Shown here piece after piece: positions 2,987 through 37,559 of a stretch of 64,000 bases of DNA. Below the pieces are notes generated by a model, which was not told where the DNA came from, did no database searches, and was given only the letters and a program-made list of their open reading frames with translations. The number at the start of each line of letters is the position of its first letter. Within the stretch, counting starts at the first letter, position 1. The DNA is from Serinicoccus chungangensis (GTDB taxonomy: Bacteria; Actinomycetota; Actinomycetes; Actinomycetales; Dermatophilaceae). The stretch spans positions 124,001 to 188,000 of the forward strand of contig NZ_LQBL01000022.1 of the NCBI RefSeq assembly GCF_001483745.1, written 5' to 3'. Position numbers and translations under genes: made by a program.

Positions 2987-3754
2987 TCAGCGATCTCCCA
3001 GGCTCGTGCCTGCATCAGCGGCCCGGCGGTCCCGCACCCGCACCCCGTCGTCGTCGGCCGGCCCGCTCACGAGCCGCTCCAGGACGAGGTAGAACGCGTA
3101 GATCGCCAGCAACGCCACGGTGACGTGCAGCAGCAGCGCCAGCGCGACCCCGACGATCACCCCGGCCAGCCAGTAGCGTCCCCAGGACACGGCGAGCACG
3201 CTGGGCACGACCACCGCGAAGAGCGCCCCGAGCGCCAGCTCGACGGGCCACGGACGGTCCCCCATCCACGGCACGACCGAGACGACGTCGAAGAAGTCGA
3301 GGGTGGCCGCCGTGCCGAGGAGGGCGACGAGCCCCAGCAGACCGACCAGCTGCACCCGCTTGCCCAGGTCACGGCTGGCCCAGAGGGTGCCGATGGTGAC
3401 GGCCGCCCACATCAGCCAGGCCCGCACCCGGCCGGTGCCCAGTCCGATCATCGCCGTCCGGAACACCCGGTCCGCCTCGTGCCGACCGATCTGGGGTCCC
3501 TCGAAGCTGCCGGGGCACACCAGGGCGTCGTGCAGGACGGCGGCCGGGAGGAAGTCACCGCTCTTGGGCACCAGCCAGGTGAAGAGGTGGGGCACCGACG
3601 CGAAGTCGGTGGTGAACCCGGCGGGCACGACGAAGGTGGCGCCGCCCTCCTCGACGTAGCCGACCGGCTGCAGGAGCACGAAGTCCCGCCCGTCCACGCT
3701 GCGCACCTCGAGGCGCAGCGGCCCCCCGGTCCGGCTGTCGAAGAACTCACCCAC
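2987..3754 (-). CDS. DUF1353 protein with C-terminal membrane segments
   Basis: 255 residues. The first ~130 residues match DUF1353 as often found in phage and bacterial proteins: an aromatic/Val-rich beta start, the pattern VPAGFTTDFASVP and the HDALV motif that could bind metal. About four hydrophobic segments follow (roughly 145-165, 178-195, 197-218 and 222-240), which is longer than stand-alone DUF1353 proteins, so this is a fused membrane-anchored form. The biochemical role is unknown. The gene starts six bases after the stop of the prolyl aminopeptidase gene in the same direction, so the two are probably co-transcribed. Confidence 0.75.
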   Translation of the reverse strand: MGEFFDSRTGGPLRLEVRSVDGRDFVLLQPVGYVEEGGATFVVPAGFTTDFASVPHLFTWLVPKSGDFLPAAVLHDALVCPGSFEGPQIGRHEADRVFRTAMIGLGTGRVRAWLMWAAVTIGTLWASRDLGKRVQLVGLLGLVALLGTAATLDFFDVVSVVPWMGDRPWPVELALGALFAVVVPSVLAVSWGRYWLAGVIVGVALALLLHVTVALLAIYAFYLVLERLVSGPADDDGVRVRDRRAADAGTSLGDR

Positions 3755-8342: not shown

Positions 8343-8822
8343 ATGAGCGAGCCCAGCCACGAGACGGCGGGAGGCGAGGCCCTCGCGCCCTTCCTGCTGT
8401 CGGTCGACCACGTCGGGCTGGCGGTGCCCGACCTGGACGCCGCGATCGCCTTCCACCGCGACGTCCTCGGGCACCGGGTGGTCCACGAGGAGACCAACGC
8501 CGAGCAGGGGGTGCGCGAGGCGATGGTCGCGGTCGGCCCGGCCGACCCCCACGGCGGCGACCAGCCGACGATGCTGCAGCTGCTCGCCCCCACCGACCCG
8601 GGGTCGACGATCGCCCGGTTCCTCGAGCGCCACGGGCCCGGGCTGCAGCAGCTGGCCTACCGCGTGAACGACCTGGAGGCCGCCAGCGCCGTCCTCCGCG
8701 GCCGCGGGCTGCGGCTGCTCTACGACCAGCCGCGCCGCGGGACGGCGGGGTCGCGCATCAACTTCATCCACCCCAAGGACGCCGGTGGGGTGCTCGTGGA
8801 GCTCGTGGAGCCCGCCGGGTGA
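8343..8822 (+). CDS. mce: Methylmalonyl-CoA epimerase
   Basis: Converts (S)- to (R)-methylmalonyl-CoA, feeding the B12-dependent mutase in propionate and odd-chain breakdown. 159 residues of the glyoxalase/VOC fold: VDHVGLAVPDLDAAIAFHRDVLGH carries the first metal-ligand His, QLLAP and LQQLAYRVNDL form the central strands, and GVLVELVEP contains the last metal-ligand Glu. ATG at 8343 is used; a GTG three codons upstream is possible. The stop overlaps the next gene by four bases. The cobalamin adenosyltransferase gene about 10 kb away fits the same pathway. Confidence 0.9.
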   Translation: MSEPSHETAGGEALAPFLLSVDHVGLAVPDLDAAIAFHRDVLGHRVVHEETNAEQGVREAMVAVGPADPHGGDQPTMLQLLAPTDPGSTIARFLERHGPGLQQLAYRVNDLEAASAVLRGRGLRLLYDQPRRGTAGSRINFIHPKDAGGVLVELVEPAG

Positions 8823-10174
8823 CGACGCAGCGCACGCAGGACCCCCGGGCCCGGGCCGCGCGGCTGCGCGCCGCCGCGCGGGCCGTCCACCCGACGGCCG
8901 TCCCCCGGGCAGGGGTGCGGGCGGTCCAGCGCTGGCGCGACTTCCGGGTGCGTCAGCGCGAGCTGCTGGACGAGAGCAACCGGCTGCAGTCCGAGCTCTG
9001 GGCGCAGATCCACGCCGACCACCCGGAGGCGGCGGCCGCCGTCCACGCCGGCCCCGCCGCCGGCCCCCAGCCGTCGCTCCCCGCCGGCGTCGAGGGACAG
9101 CCGGCCCGGGTGGGCGGCCCGCCGCGCCGACCCACGCTGCTGTCGGCGTCGGCCTTCTCCATCGGCTTCACCGGGGCGCTCGGCGTGCTGCTGGCCTGGC
9201 TGCTGCTGCAGAACCTCACCCGGCTGTCCTCGGTGCTCACCTACCTGCTGGTCGCCGTCTTCCTCACCCTCGCGCTGAACCCGCTCGTCGAGTGGCTCAC
9301 CCGCCGTGGGGTGAGCCGGCCGAGCAGCGTCTTCTGCGTCTTCATGAGCTTCGTCACGGTCGTGGGCGTGAGCGCGGTGACCCTGCTGCCGGGGGTCGTC
9401 GGGCAGGCGGTGACCCTCGTCGAGCGGGCCCCGGTGGTCCTGGACGAGCTGTCCGGCACGCCGTGGATGGTCGAGCTCGACCGGCGCTACGCCGTGAGCG
9501 AGCGCGCCACGACCGAGGTCGACCGGCTGCTCACCGAGAGCGACACCTGGACCGCGCTCTTCGGAGGGGTGCTGGGCGCGGCCGGGTGGGTCGCCGGCAG
9601 CCTCGTCGGGCTGCTGACCTCCGCCATCCTCACCCTCTACCTCCTGGCGACGCTGCCCTCGGTCAAGGACGCGGCCTACCGGCTGGTGCCGAGCAGCCGC
9701 CGCCCGCGTGTCGTCCGGCTGGCGGAGGAGATCATGCGCCGAGTCGGCGGGTATGCCCTCGGCCAGGCCACCGTGGCGACGATCAACGCGGTGTGCTCGT
9801 GGCTGATGATGCAGGTCCTCGGCATCCCCTACGCCGCCATCCTGGCCGTCTCGGTGGGTCTGCTGGGCCTCATCCCGCTCATCGGCGCCACCCTGGGCGC
9901 CGTCATCGTGGCCGTCTCGGCCCTGACCGTGTCACCGACGGTGGCGTTGGTCGTGCTCGTCTACTACGTCGTCTACCAGCAGCTGGAGAACTACTGGATC
10001 GTCCCGCGCATCATGAAGCGCACCGTCTCGGTGCCGGGGGCCGTCACCGTGGTCGCGGTGCTCGCGGGCGGCACGCTGCTCGGGGTCCTCGGCGCCCTCA
10101 TCGCCATCCCCGTGGCCGCGGGTCTGCTCCTCATCTACGAGGAGGTCCTGGTCCCGCGCCAGGAGCGCCTCTAG
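8819..10174 (+). CDS. AI-2E family transporter-like membrane protein
   Basis: 451 residues. The first ~110 residues are a basic cytoplasmic region, then about eight membrane segments follow, with the long soluble loop between segments 3 and 4 typical of the PerM/TqsA/YtvI family. The signature block GYALGQATVATINAV, the segment LIPLIGATLGAV and YYVVYQQLENYWIVPRIM near the C-terminus are diagnostic. Characterised relatives export AI-2 or act as Na+/H+ antiporters; which applies here is open. The GTG start lies in a GTGA overlap with mce, so the pair is an operon. The array of 32-bp repeats begins seven bases after its stop. Confidence 0.87.
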   Translation: MTTQRTQDPRARAARLRAAARAVHPTAVPRAGVRAVQRWRDFRVRQRELLDESNRLQSELWAQIHADHPEAAAAVHAGPAAGPQPSLPAGVEGQPARVGGPPRRPTLLSASAFSIGFTGALGVLLAWLLLQNLTRLSSVLTYLLVAVFLTLALNPLVEWLTRRGVSRPSSVFCVFMSFVTVVGVSAVTLLPGVVGQAVTLVERAPVVLDELSGTPWMVELDRRYAVSERATTEVDRLLTESDTWTALFGGVLGAAGWVAGSLVGLLTSAILTLYLLATLPSVKDAAYRLVPSSRRPRVVRLAEEIMRRVGGYALGQATVATINAVCSWLMMQVLGIPYAAILAVSVGLLGLIPLIGATLGAVIVAVSALTVSPTVALVVLVYYVVYQQLENYWIVPRIMKRTVSVPGAVTVVAVLAGGTLLGVLGALIAIPVAAGLLLIYEEVLVPRQERL

Positions 10175-10180
10175 GACCCC

Positions 10181-10328
10181 ACCGAGCGCCGCGAGTGGTT
10201 GCCTGACACCCCACCGAGCGCCGCGAATGGTTGCCTGACACCCCACCGGGCGCCGCGAATGGTTGGCTGTCACCGACCGAGCGCCGCGAATGGTTGCCTT
10301 GTCACCGACCGAGCGCCACGAATGGTTG
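10181..10328 (+). repeat. Left array of 32-bp-period repeats (5 units)
   Basis: Five copies of a 21-bp core close to ACCGAGCGCCGCGAATGGTT plus G start at 10181, 10213, 10245, 10276 and 10308, so the period is 32 bp with one 31-bp step. Between cores lie 10-11 bases that are also related (mostly CCTGACACCCC or CCTTGTCACCG). The array lies between the stops of the convergent AI-2E transporter and acetyltransferase genes. Its mirror image is at 11322-11438 on the other side of the acetyltransferase gene. Confidence 0.9.
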
Positions 10329-10369
10329 CCTTCACCAACCACCCGCGACGACCGGTGAAGGAGCGTCGG

Positions 10370-11287
10370 TCAGGCGAAGGAGCCGCCGAGCGACTGAGGC
10401 TGGGGCTGGGGCTGGGGCCATGAGCGGTAGCCGAGCAGCTCGGCGTCCCGCACGTAGCCGAACCCCTCGTACAGCGCGACAGCCGTCGCATTGATCTCGT
10501 CGACGACGAGGTTGACCGTGCCCTGTGAGGAGCGGGCGAGCAGCTCGCGCGAGATCGCTGCCAGCAGGCCCGGCGCGAGCCCCTGGCCGCGGTGCCCTGG
10601 CGCGATGGCCAGGAAGTCGAGGTAGCCGGCGCCGTCGGCCTGGATCTCCCCCGAGGCGTAGCCGGCGAGCTCGCCGTCGTGCTCGAGCACCAGGGTGGCC
10701 CGCCCCTCGTCCGCCAGCAGCTGGCTCGCGGTGGCGTAGGTGCCGGGGAAGGCAGCGTCGTGCAGCGCGGTCATCGCGGGCAGGTCCCCGGAGGTGGCGA
10801 CCCTTGCGTCCGGCGCGTCGCCCGGCCAGCGGTGAGCCGTCGCAGGCGTGGCCTGGTAGGCAATGCTCACGCCCGTGGCGTGCCACCCCAGGTCAGCGGC
10901 GAGCCGCGCCATACCGGTGTGCGCCGGGGCCGCGCTCAGCTCGTGCTGCTCCACCCCCGGCGGTAGCTGGTCGATGGCCGCTCGTACGAGCGGGACGGCA
11001 TACGCCGACCAGGTCTGCTCGTCGAGGGTCCACGGACCGTGAATCCAGCTGCGCATCGTCTCCTCGGGGTCGGCGTCGTGCAGCACGGCGCCGACGACCC
11101 GGCCGGAGGGTTCGACCGCCACCCGCAGAGTCTCCTGCCAAGGCGTGTCGAGGTCGTCGAGCTCGGCCCGCACTCCGTCGGCCTCGGTGCCGAGGTAGGC
11201 GCACGCCGTCGTCGGCGAGCTCTGGGCCGTCACGATGAGCGCCAGTGCGGCATCCTGCTGGTCCGCGTCGGCCCTGGTGATGGTCAT
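10370..11287 (-). CDS. Tandem GNAT-family acetyltransferase
   Basis: 305 residues with two GNAT modules, about 1-140 (degenerate, without a clear acetyl-CoA loop) and 150-290. The C-terminal module has a full motif A, LDFLAIAPGHRGQGLAPGLL, and motif B NLVVDEINATAVALYEGFGY. Such tandem proteins resemble mycothiol synthase in layout, but the substrate cannot be read from the sequence. The C-terminus has a small PQPQPQPQ repeat and ends in GGSFA. The gene lies exactly between two inverted arrays of 32-bp repeats and is flanked by unrelated genes, which hints at a cassette, though its codon use looks like that of its neighbours. Confidence 0.83.
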   Translation of the reverse strand: MTITRADADQQDAALALIVTAQSSPTTACAYLGTEADGVRAELDDLDTPWQETLRVAVEPSGRVVGAVLHDADPEETMRSWIHGPWTLDEQTWSAYAVPLVRAAIDQLPPGVEQHELSAAPAHTGMARLAADLGWHATGVSIAYQATPATAHRWPGDAPDARVATSGDLPAMTALHDAAFPGTYATASQLLADEGRATLVLEHDGELAGYASGEIQADGAGYLDFLAIAPGHRGQGLAPGLLAAISRELLARSSQGTVNLVVDEINATAVALYEGFGYVRDAELLGYRSWPQPQPQPQSLGGSFA

Positions 11288-11321
11288 GAGGGCAGGCTAG
11301 CGACGGCCGGGGCGGCCGGGC

Positions 11322-11438
11322 CAACCATTTCCGACGCTCGGTCGCGCCGCGGACACCCATTCACGGCGCTCGGTGGGTGACAAGCCAACCATTCACGACG
11401 CTCGGTGGGTGACAAGCCAACCACTCGCGGCGCTCGGT
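11322..11438 (-). repeat. Right array of 32-bp-period repeats (4 units, opposite orientation)
   Basis: Four copies of the complementary core (CAACCATTCACGGCGCTCGG plus T) start at 11322, 11354, 11386 and 11418, exactly 32 bp apart. The spacers share GGGTGACAAGC in the last units. The array fills the gap between the start of the acetyltransferase gene and the stop of the small zinc-ribbon gene. Cores are about 80-95% identical to those of the left array but inverted. Confidence 0.9.
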
Positions 11439-11450
11439 GGGTGGGGGGCG

Positions 11451-11774
11451 TCAGGCGAAGGACCCGCCCGGGCGGCGGCGCTCGCGGGCGGACCAGCAGA
11501 CGGTATGCCAGTGGCGGCGGTTCTCGGCCTGCTGCATCCCCTCGGTGGGCCAGGCGACGGTGTGCGCCACGTCGGCGCGCACCTCCTGCTGGCACCCGGG
11601 GCACCGGTAGGCCCGGCCGCTGTCGTTGGGGCGCACCCGACGCACCGCCCACACCTGGCCGGCGTAGCGGACCTCCTCGACCCCGCGCCGCAGCGGGTCA
11701 CCCACGCCGACCGGCCCCCCGCCCTGCCGGGCCCGCGGCCGGCCGCCCCGCCGCGGGCGGTTGGACCGGGGCAC
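11451..11774 (-). CDS. Small basic protein with a Cys/His zinc-ribbon-like motif
   Basis: 107 residues, conserved in appearance with an actinobacterial family of unknown function. The N-terminus (about 1-35) is very Arg-rich and probably binds nucleic acid. The core has YRCPGCQQEV followed by HTVAWP and HWHTVCW, so a CxxC plus His/Cys set could bind one zinc ion. The GTG at 11774 is chosen because it opens the basic segment and lies five bases before the end of the dehydrogenase gene; the longer frame would overlap that gene. Like the neighbouring acetyltransferase it ends in GGSFA. Function unknown. Confidence 0.68.
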   Translation of the reverse strand: MPRSNRPRRGGRPRARQGGGPVGVGDPLRRGVEEVRYAGQVWAVRRVRPNDSGRAYRCPGCQQEVRADVAHTVAWPTEGMQQAENRRHWHTVCWSARERRRPGGSFA

Positions 11775-21537: not shown

Positions 21538-21576
21538 GGCTGGTCTCCTCGCTGGTCGTTCTGGCCTCCCTGATCC

Positions 21577-21676
21577 GCACCGGACGTGCGGTCAGCACGC
21601 ACCGGACGCGCGGTCAGCACGCACCGGACGCGCGGTCAGCACGCACCGGACGCGCGGTCAGCACGCACCGGACGCG
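21577..21676. repeat. Tandem 22-bp repeat (about 4.5 copies) upstream of uraA
   Basis: Units start at 21577, 21599, 21621 and 21643, each 22 bp, followed by a 12-bp partial unit at 21665. The unit is GCACCGGACGCGCGGTCAGC plus AC; only the first copy differs (T for C). Units 2-4 are identical, which indicates recent amplification by slippage or recombination. It lies between uraA and atpD, 40 bases upstream of the uraA start. Confidence 0.95.
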
Positions 21677-35579: not shown

Positions 35580-37559
35580 TCAGTCGTCGTCGTCCAGCCG
35601 GACCGAGCTGGTCTGCTGGACCTGGGTGAGGAACTCGTAGTTGTGCTTCGTCTTCTTCAACCGGTCGAGGAGCAGCTCGATTCCCTGCTGCTGGTCGAGC
35701 GCGGACAGCACCCGGCGCAGCTTCCACATGATCTTGAGCTCCTCGGAGGACATGAGGATCTCCTCGCGTCGGGTGCTCGAGGCGTTGACGTCCACGGCCG
35801 GGAAGGTCCGGCGGTCGGCCAGGTGGCGGGAGAGCTTGAGCTCCATGTTGCCGGTGCCCTTGAACTCCTCGAAGATCACCTCGTCCATCTTGGAGCCGGT
35901 CTCCACCAGCGCCGTCGCGAGGATGGTCAGGGACCCGCCCTCCTCGATGTTGCGCGCGGCGCCGAAGAACTTCTTCGGCGGGTAGAGCGCGGCGGAGTCG
36001 ACACCACCGGACAGGATCCGGCCCGAGGCCGGGGCCGCCAGGTTGTAGGCGCGGCCCAGGCGGGTGATGCCGTCGAGCAGCACCACGACGTCCTGGCCCA
36101 GCTCCACGAGGCGCTTGGCCCGCTCGATCGCCAGCTCGGCCACCATCGTGTGGTCGCTCGCCGGGCGGTCGAAGGTCGAGGAGATGACCTCGCCCTTGAC
36201 GCTGCGCTGGAAGTCGGTGACCTCCTCCGGACGCTCGTCCACCAGGACGATCATCAGGTGGACCTCGGGGTTGTTGGTGGTGATGGCGTTGGCGATGGAC
36301 TGCATGACCATCGTCTTGCCCGCCTTGGGCGGGCTGACGATGAGACCGCGCTGCCCCTTGCCGATCGGCGTCACCAGGTCGATGACCCGGGTCGTGAGGT
36401 TCTTCTGCTCGGTCTCCAGCCGCAGCCGCTGCTGCGGGTAGAGCGGGGTGAGGCTGGAGAAGTCGGGGCGGCGCCGGCCCTGGTCGGGCTCCTGGCCGTT
36501 GATGCTGTCCAGCCGCACGAGGGCGCTGAACTTGCCCTTGTCCCGCTTGTTGCCGGTCGAGGAGACGGTGTGCTGCCCGACGTCGCTGCCGTCCTGCGGG
36601 GCCTTGATGGCACCCGTGACCGCGTCGCCCTTGCGCAGGCCGTGCTTCTTGACCAGGCCCATCGGGACGTAGACGTCGGTCGGGCCCGGGAGGTAGCCGG
36701 TGGTCCGGATGAAGGCGTAGTTGTCGAGCAGGTCCACGACGCCGCCGACGGGGACGAGCACGTCCTCCTCGGAGTAGCTCTCGGGGGCGTCCTGCTGCTG
36801 CTGGCCACCGGACGCGGGCTGGGCGCCACGGCCCCGCTTGCGGTCGCGGTTGCGGTTGCGGCTGCGCCGACGTCCGCGCCGCCCCCCCTCGTCGTCGCCC
36901 CAGTCGCCGTCGCCGTCGCGGCCCTGCTGACCCTGGCGGTCGTCCTGGGGGCGCTGACCGCCCTCGCGGCGGTCGTCCTGCCGACCCTGCTGACCCTGAC
37001 GGTCGTCCTGCCGGCCGTCGCGGCCCTGCTGACCCTGGCGGTCGTCCTGGGTGCGCTGGCCCCCCTCGCGGCGGTCGTCCTGCCGACCGTCGCGGCCCTG
37101 CTGACCCTGACGGTCGTCCTGGGTGCGCCGTCCGCCGTCACGGTGCTCCTCGCCGGTCGGCGCGGAGCCCTCGGCGACCGGGTCGCCACCGGAGCGGTCC
37201 TGCCCCTCGGTGCGCTCCTGCTGGTCGGCCTGCCGGTCCTGCTCGGTGCGGGGCGCGCCGGCGCTGGAGCCGCCGCGGCGGCTGCGCCGCGTGCGCGAGC
37301 CCCCGGCGGTGCCGGTGGTCTCCTCGCGCTCGGCCTGCGCGCGGTCCAGGGCTGCCTCGATGGCGTCCTGACGACCGGCGGAGCCGTTGCTGCTGGCAGC
37401 GCCCCCGCGCTGCTCCCGGATGGCGGAGACCAGGTCGGCCTTGCGCATCTTGTTGTTCACGGTAATGCCCATGCCCGACGCGAGCTCCTGGAGCTCGGCC
37501 AGACGAAGGGTGCTCAACGCGCCCGTGCGGGTCGCGCCGGCGTCGGTGATCTCAGTCAC
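35580..37559 (-). CDS. rho: Transcription termination factor Rho with long repetitive insertion
   Basis: Hexameric RNA helicase that ends transcription. 659 residues against ~420 in E. coli. Order: Rho N-terminal helical domain (about 10-55, [17 protein letters not shown]), an insertion of ~195 residues (60-255) rich in Arg, Asp, Gln and Gly with repeats such as [13 protein letters not shown] at about 143-213, the RNA-binding cold-shock fold (about 258-330), and the ATPase with Walker A PPKAGKT (about 404-411) and [12 protein letters not shown]. Basic disordered insertions here are known in actinobacteria and bind RNA; this one is strongly repetitive at the DNA level. GTG at 37559 with AAGGA upstream. 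Confidence 0.96.

Follow-up and report, generated by a model that had tools for sequence, protein, structure and literature searches.

Two opposed arrays of short repeats in a 64,000-nucleotide stretch of the Serinicoccus chungangensis genome (the window) belong to a genome-wide family of short sites in Serinicoccus. The sites have an asymmetric, bipartite core, ACCGRGCGYCG-N4-TGGTTG. They are dispersed over the genome, occupy mostly gene ends, and stand in a phased geometry, and between species their core has shifted genome-wide with varied spacers. We think the balance tips slightly toward the arrays being clustered asymmetric bipartite sites of a putative lineage-specific DNA-binding protein, laid out on a 32-bp lattice and perhaps serving as a boundary or roadblock at gene ends.

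At the window locus, the left array has five plus-strand units at 10181, 10213, 10245, 10276, and 10308 (10181..10328), and the right array has four minus-strand units at 11322, 11354, 11386, and 11418 (11322..11438). All nine are within 0 to 3 mismatches of ACCGAGCGCCGCGAATGGTTG, and they follow one another in steps of 32 bp with a single exception of 31 bp (10245 to 10276). Since the core matched a mean of 0 times in 100 dinucleotide-preserving shuffles, the nine units are beyond chance, and the opposed arrays with a 21-bp core and a 32-bp period that the initial annotation described are there at these coordinates. It missed a tenth unit, degenerate and opposed, at 10336..10356 (minus strand), which has one mismatch to the degenerate core. 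This unit lies 13 bp past the stop codon of the GNAT gene and 7 nt from the last plus-strand unit, with which it makes a convergent pair. The left array begins 6 bp past the stop codon of a called gene for an AI-2E family transporter (8819..10174, plus strand; PF01594, E = 6.7e-60). The right array begins 12 bp past the stop codon (11451) of a small conserved ORF, "ZN," of 107 aa (11451..11774, minus strand, by gene call), for which we found no Pfam family at an E value of 0.001. Each array is co-oriented with the gene whose stop codon precedes it, as had also been overlooked. Between the arrays only one gene is called, as first described: a GNAT-domain gene (10370..11287, minus strand; PF00583, E = 4e-15) encoding a single protein of 305 aa with the domain at its C terminus. 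Its 3' end (10369..10387, minus strand), which reads GGSFA-stop, is 95% like the small-ORF 3' end at 11450..11468, and units come after each of these shared ends. The two ends also match in G000 (the genome of the window), G029, G030, and G018; possibly the small-ORF 3' end was copied to the GNAT end together with its unit. Two other repeats were seen in the window. A 22-bp repeat at 21576..21676 (4.6 copies, 98% matches), unlike the 32-bp units, lies between permease-like and ATP synthase beta-like genes, and degenerate repeats at 36922..37165 encode an insert in a Rho-like protein (all three genes named by eye).

The initial annotation offered two readings of this locus: a mobile or recombining cassette, or a domain boundary with a protein bound every three helical turns. 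With the arrays as its ends and the GNAT gene as its cargo, a cassette would fit the framing of one gene by two opposed arrays, and it would fit the absence of GNAT from G022, G027, and the six outgroups examined. The comparison of genomes with and without the framed gene contradicts it. GNAT occurs at the locus together with arrays in G000, G029, G030, G018, and G011, but without them in G004 (checked also with its own core), G007, and G012. G022 has one unit there and no GNAT, G027 has neither GNAT nor arrays, and in the six outgroups the AI-2E gene and the small ORF are adjacent with no match to the window core. The gene and the arrays have thus not been gained or lost together. Neither a transposase nor a recombinase is encoded between the window arrays. 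Many arrays elsewhere frame no gene, and those that converge on one hold ordinary genes, such as those for an FKBP, an SDR, uroporphyrinogen decarboxylase, and a cyclophilin (names by eye); a single gene lies between neighboring arrays in 11 convergent, 5 tandem, and 1 divergent cases, several of them orthologues. An array-ended transposon or gene cassette was rejected on these grounds; in this form the cassette reading is refuted, and we give it next to no weight. The other half of the original suggestion, a protein every three turns at a boundary, agrees with the 32-bp tandem steps and with the phased gaps between opposed units described below.

The core is neither absent elsewhere nor confined to this gene; it is dispersed in the genome and in congeners beside varied genes. 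For counts across the genus we used the degenerate core ACCGRGCGYCGYNNRTGGTTG with at most 1 mismatch. There were 169 matches in G000, 321 in G011, 186 in G027, 153 in G030, 142 in G018, 118 in G029, and 105 in G022, with lower counts in G012 (39), G007 (16), and G004 (6) and 0 to 2 in the remaining 21 genomes of the genus. A reversed-pattern control matched once across the 31 genomes. Outside the genus, a stricter core had 1 match in 4 of 27 genomes and 0 in the other 23, and its control was not lower. This scarcity in other genera concerns this core alone, because G004, with 6 matches, has many arrays built on a different core. Named records bearing two adjacent units were from Serinicoccus (seven stretches; our own record was perhaps omitted). 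A viral origin was rejected after the degenerate core gave 0 exact matches in IMG/VR, and CRISPR was set aside on spacers of about 11 nt that resemble one another inside each array. Searches of a mostly open-access literature listed no account of such arrays.

We then related the arrays to genes called with a home-made codon-score caller. The statistics come from loci fetched around known units: 32 in G000 (which has further arrays), 38 in G022, and, in G011, a sample of 40 chosen among the 98 exact matches listed. L005 yielded no array, and it and L017 were left out of one comparison (30 loci kept). Among intergenic arrays with a gene on both sides, the ACC side faces a stop codon in 29 of 36 cases in G000, 35 of 52 in G022, and 41 of 64 in G011, mostly at a distance of 30 bp or less. 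Arrays lay between convergent genes 53 times and between divergent genes 17 times. In co-directional contexts, the array follows the direction of the upstream gene in 52 cases versus 30 against (P = 0.02), although the P values for co-orientation and context are optimistic because both arrays of each pair were counted. By genome the ratios are 16:5 in G000, 14:10 in G022, and 22:15 in G011, and neither G022 nor G011 shows the effect clearly by itself. The bias toward co-orientation is modest. One seven-unit array in G000 (L019, 2080..2291) lies 9 bp behind a tRNA-Gln gene; in G012 a few bases without any unit occupy the corresponding place.

Five arrays or units of G000 are in coding sequence. 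Their hosts, named by eye, are the linkers of two acyltransferase E2 proteins, a loop of an MFS transporter, a glycosyltransferase (antisense), and a CobQ-like protein. We rejected gene-caller errors as their source, since the translations are frame-kept linkers in the two E2 proteins and the MFS transporter. In G000, 8 of 10 in-gene steps measure 33 bp, compared with 5 of 96 intergenic steps (P = 2e-7). The corresponding in-gene counts are 0 of 6 in G022 and 1 of 4 in G011, so that this was seen in G000 only. Units in coding sequence are translated in more than one frame. The same MFS loop in G022 has 32-bp units that fall in successive reading frames, which means that the DNA, not the peptide, is kept. 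In-linker arrays of this kind were noted at L008, L012, L028, and L072, with a 33-bp period in G000 and a frame-shifting 32-bp period in G022.

The distances between opposed units are phased. With gaps of 0 to 30 nt allowed, all 28 convergent pairs from nine genomes, or about 19 loci after our own grouping of orthologues, had gaps of either 5 to 8 nt (13 pairs) or 16 to 18 nt (15 pairs), and all 24 gaps below 31 nt in the fetched loci fell into the same two classes (14 and 10). The classes are one helical turn apart. Divergent pairs were sought with a different pattern, and the seven found, in 6 of 9 genomes, come mostly from one orthologous locus; their gap is 15 nt in six and 13 nt in G029. 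The divergent gap is likewise 15 nt in G004, despite its different core. Measured from a reference point near core position 9, tandem, convergent, and divergent neighbors are all about 32 bp apart and the wide convergent class is 42 bp apart, which correspond to three and four helical turns. Longer gaps were mixed: among eight convergent ones (38, 82, 83, 96, 104, 125, 157, and 182 nt), a class plus a multiple of 32 fits 38, 82, and 104 but not the other five, and of two in G004 it fits 38 but not 124. Opposed neighbors less than 200 nt apart were convergent in 32 cases and divergent in 1. Gap sequences vary among loci, and the gap class differs among flank-matched loci (17, 7, and 38 nt at L001/L093/L193; 6, 16, and 5 nt at L016/L076/L175). 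Therefore, shared descent of a composite element fails to explain the phasing. The tandem period, for its part, could be inherited through duplication alone.

The core varies less than the spacer. Adjacent units differ by 0.078 in the core and 0.190 in the spacer (68 pairs), orthologous arrays of G000 and G029 by 0.101 and 0.227 (16), and unrelated arrays by 0.134 and 0.506 (24 arrays), with core conservation inflated because units were detected through their core. The core itself has shifted throughout whole genomes. AGA stands at positions 13 to 15 in 187 of 244 units of G011 and in 0 of 150 in G000 and 0 of 111 in G022, and C at position 20 in 121 of the 244, compared with 3 units in G000 and 4 in G022. 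In every comparison of flank-matched arrays, 22 against G000 and 26 against G022, the core takes the G011 type (A, then G or C, then A) by majority, counting rows that are doubled or possibly paralogous (L016 appears twice against L175; L103 and L192 share 71% flank identity). In G027, T is found at position 9 in 99 of 100 units listed among 148 exact matches. The G011 spacers are varied, with 117 distinct sequences among 168. One of them, CTCTCACCCCC, accounts for 10 of the 168 steps, at several different loci, a hint that whole units are sometimes copied.

Spacers of matched arrays were more alike than others between G000 and G022 (0.354 versus 0.473; P = 0.0016), a P value helped by the inclusion of L011-L084. 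At that locus the array flanks, arrays included, are about 97% identical between G000 and G022 (most others are 76 to 94%), and a recent transfer between species is its probable history. The corresponding values were 0.482 versus 0.535 between G000 and G011 (P = 0.06), and P was 0.13 between G022 and G011. Because the test is weak for these two comparisons, repeated insertion at the same gene ends is a possible account of their matched arrays.

One close relative, G012, lacks most of the arrays. At 31 regions orthologous to G000 arrays, units are present in 31 of 31 in G029 and in 9 of 31 in G012 (22 empty), at mean flank identities of about 92.6% and 91.5%, respectively; four regions in each of the two genomes hold degenerate units only. 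At 10 of the 22 empty loci, the more distant G022 or G011 has an array at the matching place, which makes loss in G012 the simpler history there. Of the arrays that G012 does have, those at L027 and L004 have the flanks of highest similarity, which recent import would produce, but those at L003 and L016 are well preserved between flanks of ordinary similarity. A search for remnants at nine of the 22 empty sites did better than shuffled sequence at two (L006 and L012) and was borderline at L008 (P = 0.09); at the other six it did no better. Decay is thus backed at few sites, and outright loss or replacement is no less common.

Arrays of other sequence also occur in the genus. In 204 kb of G004, made up of L049 and ten further stretches, two of which had been picked because they contained known hits, there are 11 arrays with 53 units; their core is ACCGRCCGCSTCNNGTGGTTG, and 42 of 42 steps are 32 bp. 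Such shifted-core arrays at L208, L209, L211, L212, L214, and L216 were mostly missed by the first pattern searches. A tandem-repeat search of 200 kb of G028 found no such array and one unrelated 30-bp repeat. In G008 and G010, an unrelated repeat, CCCCGCANNNNGANNNNGGTCTCG, with a period of 31 to 32 bp stands directly behind the AI-2E stop codon. In G010, three opposed units also reach into the end of the second gene along, and a single gene is thereby framed by two arrays, as it is in the window. These repeats were seen at L055 (2824..2886) and at L061 (2657..2712 and 3447..3534).

The main rival to a set of binding sites is a selfish, REPIN-like family, in which a copying enzyme would insert units or opposed pairs at gene ends and wherever else they are tolerated, and the arrays would grow by local duplication. 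Recognition by the enzyme would explain both a species-specific core and the disappearance of units after enzyme loss, for which the loss in G012 is a candidate. The copy number, which is high and differs by species (16 to 321 in nine genomes), the short and varied spacers of opposed pairs, the units in protein linkers, and the spacers common to several G011 loci would all be at home in such a family. REP, BIME, and REPIN sequences, according to PMC2817692 and PMC8049555, are high-copy, intergenic, regularly spaced, and species-specific in sequence, with opposed pairs around a short, diverse spacer; both the REPIN layout and the coevolution of RAYTs with REPs are published there. The Serinicoccus units are likewise high-copy, mostly intergenic, regularly spaced, and species-specific, and exceed 100 copies in G011, G027, G000, G030, G018, G029, and G022, but not in G012 or G007. 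However, a REP unit is a palindrome of 20 to 40 bp, whereas the core here is asymmetric and the arrays fold near shuffles. Inverted doublets are present as the 28 convergent pairs, yet most units stand in tandem direct arrays with a 32-bp period, and some are in coding regions. The Y1_Tnp profile for RAYT (PF01797) had no match in the 31 genus genomes, with 5 of 14 controls positive, and RAYT/REP membership was rejected on this absence. Furthermore, copying and insertion alone are not expected to give convergent gaps in two one-turn classes or to change the core at flank-matched arrays. We consider a selfish family possible but on the unlikely side.

An RNA element of the 3' untranslated region, acting in the transcript as a terminator, stability element, or series of protein-binding repeats, is improbable in our judgment. 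It would suit arrays that mostly begin a few bases past stop codons and are co-oriented with the upstream gene more often than not. It would leave the phased gaps and the antisense units inside genes unexplained. A hairpin or terminator was rejected: eight arrays fold close to shuffles (z of 0.43 to -1.53), Rfam gave 0 matches at an E value of 1 or less in 9900..11700 of the window, and no intrinsic terminator (a GC hairpin and then a T run) was found in 10000..11600. A shade more doubtful still is a neutral minisatellite family, tolerated where it is least harmful, with spacing and orientation as by-products of duplication. Such a family would account for unit numbers that vary at orthologous sites and for fewer arrays between divergent genes, but the 32:1 excess of convergence, two discrete gap classes despite unrelated gap sequences, the contrast of core and spacer, and the genome-wide core shift all argue against it.

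We therefore return to binding sites. A sequence-specific DNA-binding oligomer would be expected to leave phasing in every relative orientation, a two-part core in which some positions are free, and a core that changes at many loci together. The position of the arrays at gene ends, their low number between divergent genes, and their inward polarity point to a boundary or roadblock. From these sequence patterns we infer that a protein reads the sites and, more weakly, that the bound array may act as a polar boundary where transcription units end. The putative protein would assemble on DNA along a lattice of 32 bp, or three turns, and the bound array would stop or insulate RNA polymerase (or a replication fork) in a polar manner; convergent arrays would close off the DNA between them. 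The number of units would change through local duplication and loss. A change in the specificity of the protein would lead to a change of core throughout the genome, and loss of the factor would make the arrays vanish, which may apply to G012. It counts against binding sites that G012 and G027 manage without arrays at the window locus. A bolder proposal, which we advance only tentatively and would not be surprised to see fail, is a new kind of bacterial boundary system: arrays of mainly convergent polarity on a 32-bp lattice, formed at gene ends by an oligomeric DNA-binding protein, in which the recognition sequence would be swapped wholesale between lineages while lattice and placement are kept. 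The repeats of G004 (ACCGRCCGCSTC..TGGTTG) and of G008 and G010 would then be other specificities of this one system.

Known systems resemble parts of this model. Behind rRNA genes, the Sal boxes bound by TTF-I are arrays of short asymmetric protein sites that form a polar barrier to transcription and to replication forks. As site arrays downstream of a gene, they offer an analogy for how the Serinicoccus arrays might function, but they are eukaryotic, act on Pol I, and occupy one type of locus, whereas the Serinicoccus arrays are dispersed over ordinary bacterial genes. MIRU/VNTR loci and the long tandem repeats of cyanobacteria are also intergenic tandem units whose number varies between related genomes, as in Serinicoccus; phased opposed arrays and a coordinated genome-wide core change are not known among them. 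DNA-bound proteins such as LacI impede elongation by RNA polymerase, as described in PMC4132739 and PMC10310618. The proposed action of the arrays would be analogous, but these are a natural, genome-wide set, and both the protein and its action are put forward from the pattern of the sites.

If the units belong to a selfish family instead, that family lacks the RAYT enzyme that goes with REPs. If a protein reads the arrays, they would form a set of phased binding sites at gene ends that is natural, spans the genome, and can be dispensed with. Comparisons are at hand, with species that have at least 100 units, one close relative without most of them, and lineages in which the core has changed at many loci. 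Were this true, two processes would become open to test: the separation of neighboring genes in a GC-rich bacterium, and the joint change of specificity in a DNA-binding protein and its hundred or more sites.
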